This document shows positions 1 to 5,280 of a stretch of 5,280 bases of DNA, piece after piece. Below the pieces are notes generated by a model, which saw only the letters and a list, made by a program, of their open reading frames with translations, searched no databases and was not told the origin of the DNA. The position numbers were made by a program, and so were the translations under genes. How positions within the stretch are numbered: position 1 is the first letter of the stretch; every line of letters starts with the position of its first letter. Source of the DNA: Burkholderiaceae bacterium (lineage in GTDB: Bacteria > Pseudomonadota > Gammaproteobacteria > Burkholderiales > Burkholderiaceae); the NCBI GenBank assembly GCA_022701965.1, contig JAKONL010000321.1, positions 1 through 5,280 of the forward strand, read 5' to 3'.

Positions 1-229
1 CGACCACGGCGGCGTAGTCGGTCACGGGCGTGAACTGCACGTCCATGCCGGTTTCCTTCTTCAGGTAGTCGCCCAGCGGCGTGAACTTGCGCTGCAGCTC
101 GGTCGGCGCCTCGTCGGGAATCGCCGACACGCGAAGCACGCCCTGGGCCATCGCGCCGACGGCGGCGAAGGTCAGGGTGAAGGCGACGGCGAGACGGCCG
201 AAGCCGGAAAGGCGAGGGGAAAACTGCAT
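1..229 (-). CDS. PhnD-like periplasmic binding protein of a putative selenate/selenium ABC transporter (N-terminal part, runs off left edge)
   Basis: The first 76 residues are visible; the rest lies beyond the left edge. The protein starts MQFSPRLSGFGRLAVAF and has a typical Sec signal peptide: basic n-region (Arg6, Arg12), hydrophobic stretch about 13-26, and likely cleavage at AMA|Q (after residue 28). The mature part begins with VLRVSAIPDEAPTELQRKF, then a PLGDYL segment and FTPVTDYAAVV, the usual opening of PhnD-type phosphate/phosphite/phosphonate binding proteins. The IPDEAPTELQRKF version matches, from memory, the clade named putative selenate ABC transporter substrate-binding protein, which is found near selD. 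It would bind an oxyanion in the periplasm and pass it to an inner-membrane ABC permease. It lies 87 bases downstream of senA on the same strand. The ATG at 229 is preceded by a modest AAAGG (238-242, spacing 8). The family is fairly sure; the selenium substrate is inferred from clade and neighbours. Confidence 0.8.
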   Translation of the reverse strand, partial: MQFSPRLSGFGRLAVAFTLTFAAVGAMAQGVLRVSAIPDEAPTELQRKFTPLGDYLKKETGMDVQFTPVTDYAAVV

Positions 230-266
230 CGGGAATGCCTTTGAAGGGGAACGGAAGGAGGGTCGC

Positions 267-272
267 ATTGTA
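267..272 (-). promoter_or_regulatory. Possible -10 box for the binding-protein gene
   Basis: On the minus strand this reads TACAAT, one mismatch from the sigma-70 consensus TATAAT. It lies 37 bases upstream of the ATG at 229, which would give a leader of about 30 bases. No good TTGACA-like -35 is seen at 16-18 bases spacing (the 17-base position reads CAGGTC). If active, the transporter gene could be transcribed separately from senA as well as by read-through. Confidence 0.35.
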
Positions 273-316: not shown

Positions 317-1576
317 CTACGGCGCGGCGCACGAGCGAAAGCCTGCGAAGACGTCGTTGCGCCCGGCGGGAAAGAAGTTGCGGTAGCGCGCGTGCCGCAG
401 GTGCGGCGCCGTCGCGAACGATCCGCCGCGCAGCACGCGCCGGCCATCGAACCATGGCTGCGAGTAGTCGCGGTACGGATGCGGCATGAAGCCGGGATAG
501 GGCGCGAAGGGGCTGGATGTCCATTCCCAGACGTCGCCCCACTCGAAGCCGTCGTGTCCTGCGGCGGTTTCCCATTCGGATTCGGTCGGCAAACGGCGCC
601 CGGCCCAGCGGCACCAGGCCTCGGCCTCGTGCGCGGTGAGCTGCATCGCGGGCGCGGCACGATCGAGCGCGACCCATCGGCCGAACTGCGATCGCTCCCA
701 GCCCGCCGCCGCGCGCCGCAGATGCAGAGGCTGCGTGGCGCCCGTGTCGCGCAGCCATTCGTCGCCCTCCGGCGTCCAGAGTGCCCGGTCCGCATAGCCG
801 CCGGCCTCGACGAAGGGCAGGAACGCCGCCCAGGTCACCGGCCCCGGGTCGATGGCGAAGGCCGGCACGTCGACATCGTGCGCTCCCAGTTCGTTGTCGA
901 ACGCGAAGCCCGGACCGTCGACGCCGATGCGCCGTCGTCCGGCCGCAACGCGCAGCGCGCCGGGAACGTGCGGCGTCCGCGTCGCATCCGTCGACGGCCT
1001 GCGCATCGCCGGTCCGAGATCGATGCCCAGCCCCTGCGCCATGAAGTGCCAGGCTTCGCGGTGCATGTCCTCGTGGAACAGCACCAGCCGGAAGAAGTAG
1101 AGGTCGTCGTCGCTGTCGCCGCCGGCGCGCAACAGGGCCAGCGTGGCTTCGCGCACCGCCGCCAGGTAGGCCGTCGTGGCCGCCGGGTCGGGGAGGTCGA
1201 GCCGCCAGCGCGTCGCATGCGCCACGTTCGACGAGTCGTAGAGCGCGTCGGCCTGCGCCAGTACCGAAGGCGCTCGCGGCGCGAGCGGATCGGCGGCGCT
1301 GCCCATCGCGCGATCCGGATTGCGCGAGAGCCAGAACTCCTCGAACCAGCCGGTATGTCCGAGTTCCCAGAGCGGCAGGTTGACCGCGCTCGCCTGCGCG
1401 ATGCGCAGGCCGTCCGGGCCGAGCGCGTGCCTGAAGCCGTCGAACAGGCCGAGCAGCTGCGTCCGCCCGGCCGTCAGCGCGGCCTCGATTTCCCGTGGCC
1501 CGGCGCGCCGCATCGCCTCGCCCCAGGAAGCCCTGCGGGAACGTCCGACCTCCCGCTCCGATATAAGCGCGTCCAT
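317..1576 (-). CDS. senA: SenA, selenoneine synthase (EgtB-like non-heme iron enzyme)
   Basis: 419 residues with the two-part EgtB architecture. The N-terminal DinB-like half (about 27-185) carries the expected iron-binding triad: His74 in ELGHTGWFEEFW, and His168 and His172 in the HxxxH motif FHEDMH. The C-terminal FGE-sulfatase half (about 205-416) shows FDNE (226-229), RRLPTESEWE (327-336), GDVWEWTSSP (347-356), RVLRGGSF (380-387) and the closing FAGFRS (410-415). EgtB joins hercynine to a sulfur donor with oxygen. SenA is the homologue reported to join hercynine to a selenosugar, giving selenoneine after loss of the sugar. Assignment to SenA rather than EgtB rests on direct linkage to the selenosugar-type glycosyltransferase and selD, not on diagnostic residues. 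The ATG at 1576 is chosen because GGAGGA lies 6 bases upstream; Met22 (ATG at 1513) is the alternative. The stop is TAG. The product is probably cytoplasmic, as no signal peptide is seen. Confidence 0.88.
   Translation of the reverse strand: MDALISEREVGRSRRASWGEAMRRAGPREIEAALTAGRTQLLGLFDGFRHALGPDGLRIAQASAVNLPLWELGHTGWFEEFWLSRNPDRAMGSAADPLAPRAPSVLAQADALYDSSNVAHATRWRLDLPDPAATTAYLAAVREATLALLRAGGDSDDDLYFFRLVLFHEDMHREAWHFMAQGLGIDLGPAMRRPSTDATRTPHVPGALRVAAGRRRIGVDGPGFAFDNELGAHDVDVPAFAIDPGPVTWAAFLPFVEAGGYADRALWTPEGDEWLRDTGATQPLHLRRAAAGWERSQFGRWVALDRAAPAMQLTAHEAEAWCRWAGRRLPTESEWETAAGHDGFEWGDVWEWTSSPFAPYPGFMPHPYRDYSQPWFDGRRVLRGGSFATAPHLRHARYRNFFPAGRNDVFAGFRSCAAP
1562..1567 (+). promoter_or_regulatory. 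Possible -10 box for senB (leaderless start)
   Basis: TATAAG lies seven bases before the senB ATG at 1575, an AT-rich island in very GC-rich surroundings. Transcription from it would begin at or next to the start codon, giving a leaderless mRNA. This fits the absence of any Shine-Dalgarno-like sequence just upstream of senB. No convincing -35 is seen (the 17-base position reads GAACGT), and the bases also encode residues near the senA N-terminus, so this is tentative. Confidence 0.25.
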
Positions 1577-2561
1577 GAAAAGTCCTCCGCCTTCGATCTG
1601 CATCGTGACGCCGGCGCTGGCCGATGCCAACAACGGCAACTGGCAGACGGCCCGGCGCTGGTCGCGGATGCTGGCCGCGGATTATCGGATCGAGCTCGTC
1701 GGGCGCTGGGACGATGCCTGCGCCCCTGCGGACGCCATGGTCGCGCTGCATGCCCGGCGTTCGGCCGATTCGATCGCCCGCTGGGCCGATGCGTCCGCGC
1801 GGGGGCCGCACCGACCGCTCGCCGTCGTGCTGACCGGCACCGATCTCTACCGCGACATCGGCACCGACGCCGCCGCCGACCGCTCGCTGGCGCTGGCCGA
1901 CAGGCTGGTCGTGCTGCACGAGCGTGCGGTCGACGACCTGCCGCCGCGCTTTCGCCACAAGGCCCTGGCCTGCTTCCAGTCGACCTCCTCGCGCCGGCCG
2001 CTCGACAAGCCCGGACGCCACCTGCGCGCCCTGATGGTCGGCCACCTGCGCGCGGAGAAGGCGCCTCGGACCTATTTCGCGGCCGCCCGTGCGCTCGCCG
2101 GTCGCACCGACATCCTGCTCGACCATGTCGGCGCCGCGCTCGACCCCGCGCTCGGCGTCGAGGCCGAGGCGTTGCAGCGGCAATGCCCCGCCTACCGCTG
2201 GCTCGGCGCACGGCCGCATGCCGATGCGCGCCGCCGCATCCAGGCGGCGCATGTGCTCGTCCATCCGAGCGTCATGGAAGGCGGCGCGCACGTCGTGATG
2301 GAAGCGGTCCGCAGCGGCACGCCGGTGCTGGCCAGCCGCATCGCCGGCAACGTCGGCATGCTCGGCGCGGACTACGACGGCTACTTCGAACCGGGCGACG
2401 CCGAAGGTCTCGCCGGGCTGATCGAACTCTGCCGCGACGACCCGGCGATACTTTCCCGCCTCGGCGCGCAGTGCGCACGGCGCGCCCCGTTGTTCGACCC
2501 CGCCCGCGAGCGCGCGACCCTGCGCGCCCTGCTGGCCGAAATGCTGGAGACCTCCGTATGA
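1575..2561 (+). CDS. senB: SenB, selenosugar synthase (GT4-like glycosyltransferase, TIGR04348-type)
   Basis: 328 residues with a GT-B glycosyltransferase layout. The N-terminal Rossmann half has ICIVTPALADANNGNWQTA (8-26) and LTGTDLYRDI (86-95). The nucleotide-sugar half has VGHLRAEKAP (155-164), HPSVMEGGAHVVMEA (230-244) and SRIAGNVGML (254-263). Glu235 and Glu243 form the E-x7-E motif of GT4-type retaining enzymes, which contacts the UDP-sugar. Members of this clade, long annotated only as putative glycosyltransferases, were shown to be SenB, which uses selenophosphate and a UDP-sugar (UDP-GlcNAc in the original report) to make a 1-seleno-sugar, the selenium donor for SenA. The start MKSPPPSICIVTP puts the first beta strand at the usual distance. 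No Shine-Dalgarno precedes it, and its ATG overlaps the ATG of divergent senA. The end overlaps selD by ATGA. No signal peptide or membrane segment is seen. Function is assigned from motifs plus context. Confidence 0.88.
   Translation: MKSPPPSICIVTPALADANNGNWQTARRWSRMLAADYRIELVGRWDDACAPADAMVALHARRSADSIARWADASARGPHRPLAVVLTGTDLYRDIGTDAAADRSLALADRLVVLHERAVDDLPPRFRHKALACFQSTSSRRPLDKPGRHLRALMVGHLRAEKAPRTYFAAARALAGRTDILLDHVGAALDPALGVEAEALQRQCPAYRWLGARPHADARRRIQAAHVLVHPSVMEGGAHVVMEAVRSGTPVLASRIAGNVGMLGADYDGYFEPGDAEGLAGLIELCRDDPAILSRLGAQCARRAPLFDPARERATLRALLAEMLETSV
1583..1588 (-). promoter_or_regulatory. Shine-Dalgarno site of senA, inside the senB reading frame
   Basis: The minus strand reads GGAGGA, six bases before the ATG at 1576. 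This near-perfect ribosome binding site decides the senA start. On the plus strand the same bases are codons 3-5 of senB, encoding its Ser-Pro-Pro run. Confidence 0.75.
2546..2549 (+). promoter_or_regulatory. Shine-Dalgarno site of selD within the end of senB
   Basis: GGAG lies eight bases before the selD ATG at 2558. With the ATGA stop/start overlap it supports the chosen selD start and suggests translational coupling of senB and selD. Confidence 0.55.
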
Positions 2562-3625
2562 CCATCCCTTCGACCGCTCCTTCGACTGGCCCTCGCCTGA
2601 CGTCCCTCTCCCACGGCGGCGGCTGCGGCTGCAAGATCGCCCCCGGCGTGCTGTCGGAGATCCTGCGCAACAGCGGCGGCGGGATCATTCCGCCCGAACT
2701 CATGGTCGGCATCGAGACCGCCGACGACGCCGCCGTCTACCGTCTCAACGACACCCAGGCGCTGATCGCCACCACCGACTTCTTCACGCCCATCGTCGAC
2801 GACCCGTACGACTTCGGCCGCATCGCCGCGACCAACGCCATCAGCGACGTCTACGCGATGGGCGGCAAGCCGATCATGGCGCTGGCGCTGGTCGCCATGC
2901 CGATCGCGCAGCTGCCGGTCGAGGTCATCGGCGAGATCGTGCGCGGCGGGCAGGACGTGTGCCGCGCGGCCGGCATCCCGATCGCCGGTGGCCACACCAT
3001 CGATTCGGTCGAGCCGATCTACGGCCTGGTCGTGATGGGGCTGGTGCATCCGGACCGCGTGCGGCGCAATGCCGGCGCGCGGGCCGGCGACGTGCTGATC
3101 CTCGGCAAGCCGCTGGGCGTGGGCGTGCTGTCGGCGGCGCTCAAGAAGGAACAGCTGCCCGAGGCCGGCTACCGGCAGCTGATCGACACGACGACCAAGC
3201 TGAACACGCCCGGCATCGCGCTCGCGCAGCTCGACGGCGTGCATGCGCTGACCGACGTGACCGGCTTCGGGCTGGCCGGCCATGCGCTGGAACTGGCACG
3301 GGGTGCGGGTCTGACCGCGGTGATCGAATGGTCGAAGGTACCGTTGCTCGACGGCGTCGAGGCGATGGCCGCCGAAGGCTTCGTCACCGGGGCCTCGGGG
3401 CGCAACTGGGTCGGCTACGGCGCGGAAATCGAACTGGCCGACGGCCTTCCGGCGACGGCGCAAAGCCTGCTGAGCGATCCGCAGACCTCGGGCGGGCTGC
3501 TCGTGAGCTGCGCGGCGGAGGCCGTGGCCGAGGTGCTGGACGTGTTCGGCGCCGAGGGCTTCGGGCAGGCGACGGTCGTCGGCCGCGTGGAAGCCGGCCG
3601 GCCGGGACTTCGCGTCGAGGTCTGA
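2558..3625 (+). CDS. selD: Selenide, water dikinase (selenophosphate synthetase) SelD/SenC
   Basis: 355 residues, close to the E. coli SelD length of 347, and alignable along its whole length. It makes selenophosphate from selenide and ATP. The active-site loop SHGGGCGCKIAP (18-29) holds Cys23 and Lys26, equivalent to E. coli Cys17 and Lys20. The catalytic cysteine is encoded by TGC, so this is the Cys form and not the selenocysteine form. Other family signatures are ETADDAAVY (53-61), TTDFFTPIVD (72-81), DFGRIAATNAISD (85-97), MGGKPIMA (101-108), IAGGHTID (142-149), LTDVTGFGLAGH (231-242) and DPQTSGGLL (307-315). The start overlaps the senB stop (ATGA) and has GGAG eight bases upstream. In this setting it corresponds to senC and should feed SenB. 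It may also serve selenocysteine or 2-selenouridine synthesis elsewhere in the genome, but no selA, selB or selU is in the window. Confidence 0.97.
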   Translation: MTIPSTAPSTGPRLTSLSHGGGCGCKIAPGVLSEILRNSGGGIIPPELMVGIETADDAAVYRLNDTQALIATTDFFTPIVDDPYDFGRIAATNAISDVYAMGGKPIMALALVAMPIAQLPVEVIGEIVRGGQDVCRAAGIPIAGGHTIDSVEPIYGLVVMGLVHPDRVRRNAGARAGDVLILGKPLGVGVLSAALKKEQLPEAGYRQLIDTTTKLNTPGIALAQLDGVHALTDVTGFGLAGHALELARGAGLTAVIEWSKVPLLDGVEAMAAEGFVTGASGRNWVGYGAEIELADGLPATAQSLLSDPQTSGGLLVSCAAEAVAEVLDVFGAEGFGQATVVGRVEAGRPGLRVEV

Positions 3626-3670: not shown

Positions 3671-4651
3671 TCAGTCCAGCGTGGCGCCGGACTGCTTGAC
3701 GAGCTGCTGGTGCTTCGTCATCTCCGACTGGAAGAACGCCGGCGCGAGGTCGGGCCCGGTGGCCAGCAGGGTGAGCCCCTGCGCCGTGAGGGCGGTCTGG
3801 GCCTCGGGCGAAGCGAGTGCCGCCCGAACGGCCGCATGGTCGGCGTCGACCACCGCCTTGGGCAGTCCGCTCGGGCCGATGAGCGCGATCCAGGCGTCGA
3901 AGCTGTACTTCGGCACGCCCGCCTCGGCGACGGTCGGCACGTCCGGCAGCGCGGCCGAACGCCCCGGGGTCGACACCGCGAGCGCGCGCAGCGTTCCGGC
4001 CCGCACCTGCGGCGCCACCTGCGAGATCGACACGAACGCCAGGTCGACCTGGCCGCCGACCAGGTCGGTGATCAGCGGCCCGGTGCCGCGGTACGGCACG
4101 TGCTTCATCGCGATGCCGGTCTCGCTGACGAGCAGCTCGCCGGCCAGGTGGAGCGTGCTGCCGTTGCCGGCCGAGCCGTAGTTCAGCTTGCTGGGATGGG
4201 CCCTGGCGTAGGCGACCAGTTCCTTCACGCTCCTGACCGGCAGCGCCGGGTGGACCACCAGCAGCAGCGGCACCGTCGCCACCACGGCGATCGGCGTGAT
4301 GTCGTTCATGCTGTCGTAGGGAATGGACCGGTAGATGCCCGGGTTGATGACGTGGTTCGACGAGATCAGGCCCAGCGTGAGGCCGTCCTTGGGCGCCTTG
4401 ACGATCTGCGCGGTGCCGGGGATGCCGCCGGCGCCGACGATGTTCTCCACCACGACCGGATGGCCGGTGGCCTTGCCGAAGCCCGGCGCGATGGCCCGGG
4501 CGACGGCGTCGACCGTGGAGCCGGCCGCCAGCGGCACGATGAGCCGGAGCGGCCGGTCGGGCTGGGCATGGGCGCCGAGGCCGGCGAGCGCCAGCAGCGC
4601 CGCGAGGGCGGCACGGCGGGTGGCGACAGGAACATTCATCCGGGCTTTCAT
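3671..4651 (-). CDS. Bug/TctC-family tripartite tricarboxylate-type periplasmic solute-binding protein
   Basis: 326 residues, the usual length for Bug proteins. A Sec signal peptide is clear: basic start with Arg12-Arg13, hydrophobic 14-27, and likely cleavage at AHA|Q (after residue 29). The mature protein begins with the family pattern PLRLIVPLAAGSTVDAVAR (34-52), where Asp48 is the conserved ligand-loop aspartate. VVENIVGAGG (67-76), the SIPYDSMNDITPI segment (109-121), LNYGSAGNGS (156-165), VPYRGTGP (185-192) and LPDVPTVAEAG (235-245) are also typical. Bug proteins capture carboxylates or related small molecules in the periplasm; many are orphans without TctAB membrane partners, and none is visible here. 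The ligand cannot be read from sequence. The ATG at 4651 is chosen for AAGGAG nine bases upstream; an in-frame ATG at 4639 is the alternative. It follows an aconitase-family gene by 32 bases, so a hydroxy- or tricarboxylate ligand is plausible. Confidence 0.93.
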   Translation of the reverse strand: MKARMNVPVATRRAALAALLALAGLGAHAQPDRPLRLIVPLAAGSTVDAVARAIAPGFGKATGHPVVVENIVGAGGIPGTAQIVKAPKDGLTLGLISSNHVINPGIYRSIPYDSMNDITPIAVVATVPLLLVVHPALPVRSVKELVAYARAHPSKLNYGSAGNGSTLHLAGELLVSETGIAMKHVPYRGTGPLITDLVGGQVDLAFVSISQVAPQVRAGTLRALAVSTPGRSAALPDVPTVAEAGVPKYSFDAWIALIGPSGLPKAVVDADHAAVRAALASPEAQTALTAQGLTLLATGPDLAPAFFQSEMTKHQQLVKQSGATLD

Positions 4652-4683: not shown

Positions 4684-5280
4684 TCAGGCGTGACGTTCGC
4701 GCAGCGTCTCGAACGACACCAGCTCGCCGGCGATGGCGCTGGCGGCCACGGTCGGCGGGCTCGCGAGCCAGACCTGCCCCGGGCCGCCGCGTCCGGGAAA
4801 GTTGCGGTTGATGGCGCTCACCGTGACCTGGCCGGCATCGACCGAACCGCCGGGCCCGCAGTTGCCGCAGGCCCCGCACGACGGCTGCAGCATGCGGGCG
4901 CCGACCTTCTCGAAGGCGTCCATGTAGCCCGCGGCGACGCAGTGGTCCCGCACGGCCGTGGTGCCGAACTGCAGGAACAGCTGCACGCCCGGCGCCACGC
5001 GCAGTCCGCGGTCGGCGGCCCAGCGCAGCACGGCGTGGTAGTGGTCGAAATCCTCCCGCTTGCCGGCGGTGCAGGAGCCGCCGTAGGCGATGTCGACGCG
5101 CACCGGCACCGCGATGTCGGCCAGCGGCATGCCGTTGCCGGGATCGCCGGGCCGCGCCACCATCGGCGGCACCGACGCGCAGTCGACGCGCAGCGTCTTC
5201 GTGTAGACGGCGGCGGCGTCGCTGGCCATCCAGGGTTCGAGCACGAAGTCGACGCCGCGGCGCTCGCGCAGGAACCGAAC
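4684..5280 (-). CDS. Aconitase/LeuC-family hydro-lyase (C-terminal part, runs off right edge)
   Basis: The frame is open to the right edge, so the 198 visible residues are the C-terminal part of a longer protein. Numbering from the first visible residue, likely [4Fe-4S] ligands are Cys70 in YGGSCTAGKRED and the CxxC pair Cys135/Cys138 in PSCGACGNCGPG. SAINRNFPGRGG (155-166) matches the substrate-binding arginine motif of aconitases (NRNFxGR). ASPPTVAASAIAG (173-185) is the usual end of the catalytic domain of LeuC/aconitase large subunits. The family dehydrates and rehydrates hydroxy-acids such as citrate, isopropylmalate or homocitrate. Two details depart from the canonical GSCTNSR motif: Asn is Ala and Arg is Lys. 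A further cysteine (Cys141) follows the CxxC. This may be a divergent clade with another substrate, so I give no gene symbol. It ends 32 bases before the Bug-protein gene on the same strand, probably in one operon. Confidence 0.85.
   Translation of the reverse strand, partial: VRFLRERRGVDFVLEPWMASDAAAVYTKTLRVDCASVPPMVARPGDPGNGMPLADIAVPVRVDIAYGGSCTAGKREDFDHYHAVLRWAADRGLRVAPGVQLFLQFGTTAVRDHCVAAGYMDAFEKVGARMLQPSCGACGNCGPGGSVDAGQVTVSAINRNFPGRGGPGQVWLASPPTVAASAIAGELVSFETLRERHA

Follow-up and report, generated by a model that had tools for sequence, protein, structure and literature searches.

A standard selenoneine (sen) locus and its selenium context in a betaproteobacterium near Variovorax

Does a stretch of DNA that carries an EgtB-like gene, a glycosyltransferase-like gene and selD side by side encode the selenoneine pathway, and to what extent would its SelD serve that pathway? 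The window (the whole stretch analysed here, 5,280 nucleotides) was originally predicted to contain a complete senA, senB and selD set. The frames of the three genes are open: senA (selenoneine synthase, 419 amino acids) occupies 317..1576 on the minus strand, senB (selenosugar synthase, 328 amino acids) 1575..2561 on the plus strand, and selD/senC (selenide, water dikinase, Cys-type, 355 amino acids) 2558..3625 on the plus strand. Each product scores over the cut-off, far beyond chance, against a model of its family (SenA, NCBIfam equivalog NF041186, 506 bits, cut-off 420; SenB, TIGR04348, 434 bits, cut-off 300; SelD, PRK00943, 528 bits, and TIGR00476, 431 bits), which bears out the predicted set. 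The three genes also adjoin without gaps, as had been claimed, with overlaps of 2 bases between senA and senB and 4 bases between senB and selD, but senA is divergent, and the three do not form a single operon. A search for RNA families and tRNAs across the window found none. The expectation that automatic annotation would mislabel such genes holds in part: the NCBIfam models now in use give SenA and SenB their correct names, and some database entries still read EgtB or iron(II)-dependent oxidoreductase.

The senA product could in principle be an EgtB-type sulfoxide synthase, with the locus making ergothioneine. EgtB takes a sulfur donor, unlike SenA, and the product does match the EgtB model TIGR03440 (256 bits). 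It also carries the iron-binding His triad common to EgtB and SenA, intact as predicted: H74, H168 and H172 each align with a His in the SenA structure PDB 8k5i. However, the EgtB score lies below the cut-off of 360 while the SenA cut-off is passed, the gene adjoins senB and selD, and the protein stands apart from 15 EgtB proteins of relatives' genomes in a tree. We consider an ergothioneine locus very improbable, and on family scores and the tree we rejected the EgtB identity. The closest solved structures are those of SenA (8k5i and 8ryz), with 57% identity to 8k5i (223 of 393 aligned residues).

The tree has 74 rows (the window, 51 SenA from loci, 4 SenA from a protein search, the 15 EgtB, and SenA, OvsA and EgtB from the PDB), and in it the window's SenA groups with SenA and not with EgtB, as the original prediction had required. 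The 57 SenA rows form one side of a branch (support 74/84; 74% of 200 bootstrap trees), and the window falls in starred sets of 3, 4 and 6 rows that contain SenA only, its nearest neighbor being P0007 (79% identity). The 16 EgtB rows likewise form one side of a branch (support 100/89), and the program warns that long branches meet here, those of the PDB EgtB row and of the other EgtB rows. The same tree bears on the idea that the locus encodes an OvsA-like selenoxide synthase, with ovoselenol or another selenometabolite as the product. OvsA uses a selenosugar, and its structure (8ux5) is the next solved relative of the window protein after SenA, but it scores 154 bits against 423 bits for SenA. 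Moreover, the OvsA row, which is very long and unsure in its place, is not part of the small, well-supported SenA sets to which the window belongs, and no methyltransferase family was matched in the six translated stretches of the window that were scanned. We regard an ovoselenol-type product as extremely unlikely, and the OvsA identity was rejected on bit scores and the tree.

The length of SenA depends on its start. Besides the start at 1576, the frame is open from a TTG at 1639 as well, and for the homologs P0008, P0009 and P0013 a shorter start has been called. P0001, a close relative (98% identical), is called with 419 amino acids, and when the window's SenA is aligned with 19 of 120 listed SenA relatives, many of the proteins begin alike (for example with M-D-E-L-I) and agree in the length of this region. 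Because this start and length are kept in many relatives, the long SenA is favored.

For SenB, the claim of membership in the SenB clade is supported by the family models, in which the next family reaches 87 bits against the 434 bits of TIGR04348; the placement was assessed by score. The closest solved structures are 8jjq, 8jjn, 8fbx and 8k5u, and identity to 8jjq is 62% (195 of 315 aligned residues). The E-x7-E motif named in the original prediction is present as E235-x7-E243, which corresponds to E231 and E239 of Variovorax paradoxus SenB, and so is the EGGAHV motif. Thirteen of 16 positions, chosen from PMC10891094, match V. paradoxus SenB. These include E239 as well as N20, T23, K158 and E231, whose window equivalents are N22, T25, K162 and E235. 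The three that differ (V157 to E161, L209 to R213, T214 to A218) are variable positions and do not define the family. In 81 rows, comprising the window and 80 genome loci that were retained by their likeness to it and are not a family census, the L209 column holds L 50 times, V 15, Q 11, R 4 and M once, the T214 column T 50 times, V 16, A 14 and S once, and the V157 column E 80 times and V once. In contrast, both SenBs in the PDB, the V. paradoxus and Ramlibacter chains, have Val at this last column. In PMC10891094, V157 is described as touching the N-acetyl group of the donor, and replacing it with A, F, I, M, R or K reduced activity; Glu is absent from these substitutions. The Glu at a donor-sugar contact (window codon at 2055-2057) is a small testable lead. 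In a plasmid collection, SenB-like matches occur in 6 of 72,556 records, three of them across most of the query; plasmid-borne senB is seen in NZ_CP044550.1, NC_010727.1 and NZ_AP014810.1 (Hydrogenophaga sp. BPS33, Methylorubrum populi).

The layout of the window recurs among relatives. A divergent senA lies within 400 bases of senB in 55 of the 80 loci, some of which are cut by contig ends, and egtD and a binding-protein gene are found within the locus in 43 and 36 of the 80, respectively. In a larger junction set (the 80 loci, 100 further loci and the window; 173 after removal of identical junctions), the 500 bases upstream of senB were compared with senA, egtD and egtB: a divergent senA matched best in 122 cases and egtD in 15, and 36 had no match. 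The divergent senA / senB-selD arrangement is the common one. Of 399 genomes sampled from the family of Variovorax soli, 143 have a SenB over the cut-off. Among 30 relatives, which are senB-locus genomes hand-picked from the 80 loci, 28 have a SenA over the cut-off; two do not, and one of these also lacks EgtD, so senB alone is no proof of selenoneine.

Loci in which senB lacks an adjacent senA were seen in 19 selected genomes. Nine of these have senA elsewhere, and ten have no SenA over the cut-off (G420, G421, G007, G422, G423, G424, G018, G427, G430 and G432; nine of the ten are MAGs by title). The locus of Tepidicella baoligensis (L034, in G018) has retained the binding-protein gene, selD and a senB whose product carries all 13 of the residues checked, and searches of that genome for SenA, EgtB and EgtD gave no match. 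In Tepidicella xavieri (L069, in G029), the binding-protein gene is separated from senB by egtD and senA. Comparison of the two loci suggests that SenB may have a use apart from selenoneine.

Selenoneine synthesis also calls for hercynine, and EgtD, the enzyme that makes it, is not encoded in the window. An EgtD is found in 29 of the 30 relatives (27 over the cut-off), and hercynine would have to come from an EgtD encoded outside the window. Next to senA and on the same minus strand, the start of a periplasmic binding protein gene (2..268; TIGR04553, a putative selenate ABC transporter component) runs off the window. The fragment of at most 89 codons scores 63 bits over 46 of 266 model positions, below the cut-off of 250 because the gene is truncated by the window edge. 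TIGR04553 is matched over the cut-off in 22 of the 30 genomes, and 8 of the 80 loci share the arrangement of the window, with such a gene directly behind senA and in its orientation. The neighboring protein probably serves in the uptake of a selenium oxyanion, its substrate being putative. The context is one in which a putative selenium uptake protein adjoins senA and EgtD would be supplied from elsewhere. On the other side of the locus, a family scan found genes on the minus strand for a TctC-type tricarboxylate receptor (3671-4651) and for the C-terminal part of an aconitase/isopropylmalate dehydratase-like protein (4684-5280, running off the window), which probably belong to an unrelated operon.

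The overlap of senA and senB is a palindromic CATG (1574..1577), in which the senB ATG (plus strand, 1575-1577) overlaps the senA ATG (minus strand, 1576-1574). A Shine-Dalgarno-like GGAGG on the minus strand (1584..1588) precedes the senA ATG by 7 bases and falls within senB codons 4-5; a -10-like hexamer picked out by eye, TATAAG on the plus strand (1562..1567), precedes the senB ATG, also by 7 bases, and falls within senA codons 4-5. A scan of 1400-1750 for consensus promoters and for terminators turned up neither a complete promoter nor a terminator. Counting the window, 41 of 120 distinct divergent junctions share the CATG in this way. Reading phases are compatible in 51 of the 120 junctions (40 expected by thirds). 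A C precedes the nearest senB ATG in 36 of 49 compatible-phase loci, and in 11 of 29 and 14 of 15 loci of the other two phases; being frequent there as well, it is no mark of a shared start. The ribosome-site energy of the 41 sharing loci is slightly better than that of synonymous controls (-5.41 vs -4.38), and that of 78 other loci is not (-3.73 vs -3.76). Ranks of 0.05 or below were obtained for 2 of 41 sharing loci and 0 of 78 others, and ranks of 0.2 or below for 13 of 41 and 13 of 78; the window's own site, with a rank of 0.345, is not stronger than its controls. Given that the phase, C and energy tests are weak and that the junction rows are related and not independent, we do not claim selection. 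A literature search on head-to-head start overlap listed 10 papers, and none of their titles concerned this locus. We tentatively raise the idea, which we hold to be rather doubtful, that senA and senB are both translated from the palindromic CATG, with the senA ribosome site placed in senB codons and the senB promoter in senA codons. If true, the genes for the maker and the consumer of the selenosugar would be locked in one head-to-head switch, at 41 of 120 junctions and in several betaproteobacterial groups. The shared start codon is a small testable lead.

The SelD of the window, which was aligned to PDB 3u0o, is full-length and intact, as predicted, with the Cys-type site C23-G-C-K26; we take the Cys and Lys of this site to be the essential pair of SelD. 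The original prediction had this protein dedicated, at least in part, to a small molecule. An opposing explanation is that SelD serves mainly selenouridine or selenocysteine metabolism and is placed here only by operon convenience. For this speak SelU, over the cut-off in 30 of 30 relatives, and SelD, over the cut-off in all 30 and with exactly one such match in 29; in some of the 30 the single SelD does not adjoin senB, and in G022 and G026 selD lies beside selU. SelA is over the cut-off in 5 of the 30. Yet 38 of the 80 loci have, no more than 200 bases after senB and on its strand, a SelD more than 60% identical to that of the window, which ties SelD at least partly to SenB. Placement by convenience is a minority possibility, and the dedication predicted for SelD stands in its partial form, with sole dedication being unlikely. 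Because SelU is present in all 30 relatives and SelD is single in 29 of them, selenophosphate most likely goes to both selenouridine and selenoneine, and SelD is probably common to the two. One enzyme would thus divide selenium between both products. In 23 of the 80 loci the best SelD-like match is less than 45% identical, and in five loci (L008, L010, L019, L022 and L045) such a match begins some 1.3 kb past senB, in the same orientation. This spacing leaves room for an additional domain or gene before the match, which is possibly a SelD-related fusion.

Taken together, family models over curated cut-offs, the closest structures, kept residues, the tree, the conserved divergent order and egtD in relatives lead us to read the window, with near certainty, as a standard sen locus of a betaproteobacterium near Variovorax. 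Gene identity, the kept catalytic residues, the grouping of SenA and the conserved gene order are direct observations; the production of selenoneine is predicted, by analogy with V. paradoxus. If the enzymes act as in that organism, SelD would convert selenide and ATP to selenophosphate, SenB would transfer the selenium to a UDP-sugar, forming a 1-seleno-sugar, and the iron-dependent SenA would join the selenosugar to hercynine, after which the resulting selenoxide would break down and reduction would yield selenoneine (PMC9814287, PMC10891094, PMC10702425, PMC10903977, PMC11448449 and PMC13188914). These sources disagree on production in organisms: PMC9814287 states that selenoneine was found to be produced by organisms with the locus, while PMC11448449 has the V. 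paradoxus enzymes demonstrated in vitro, not in vivo.

The pathway type was already known, as the original prediction said, and the locus is a new copy of it and not a new system, intact and ordinary in kind and layout. Its value is that of one more well-formed sen locus, with context on selenium sharing in these bacteria. The same three families make up the sen cluster of V. paradoxus DSM 30034 (senA, senB and senC/selD). The SenB of V. paradoxus, from which the 8jjq and 8fbx chains derive (PMC10891094 and PMC10702425), differs from the 62% identical window protein at V157, L209 and T214. RsSenB of Ramlibacter sp. (PDB 8k5u), located in a sen cluster according to PMC10891094, is of the same family (361 bits) and has Val where the window has E161. 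OvsA of the ovoselenol pathway, a related selenoxide synthase by its PDB name, is distant in sequence. EgtB of the ergothioneine pathway is of a related fold family and forms a separate group in the tree.
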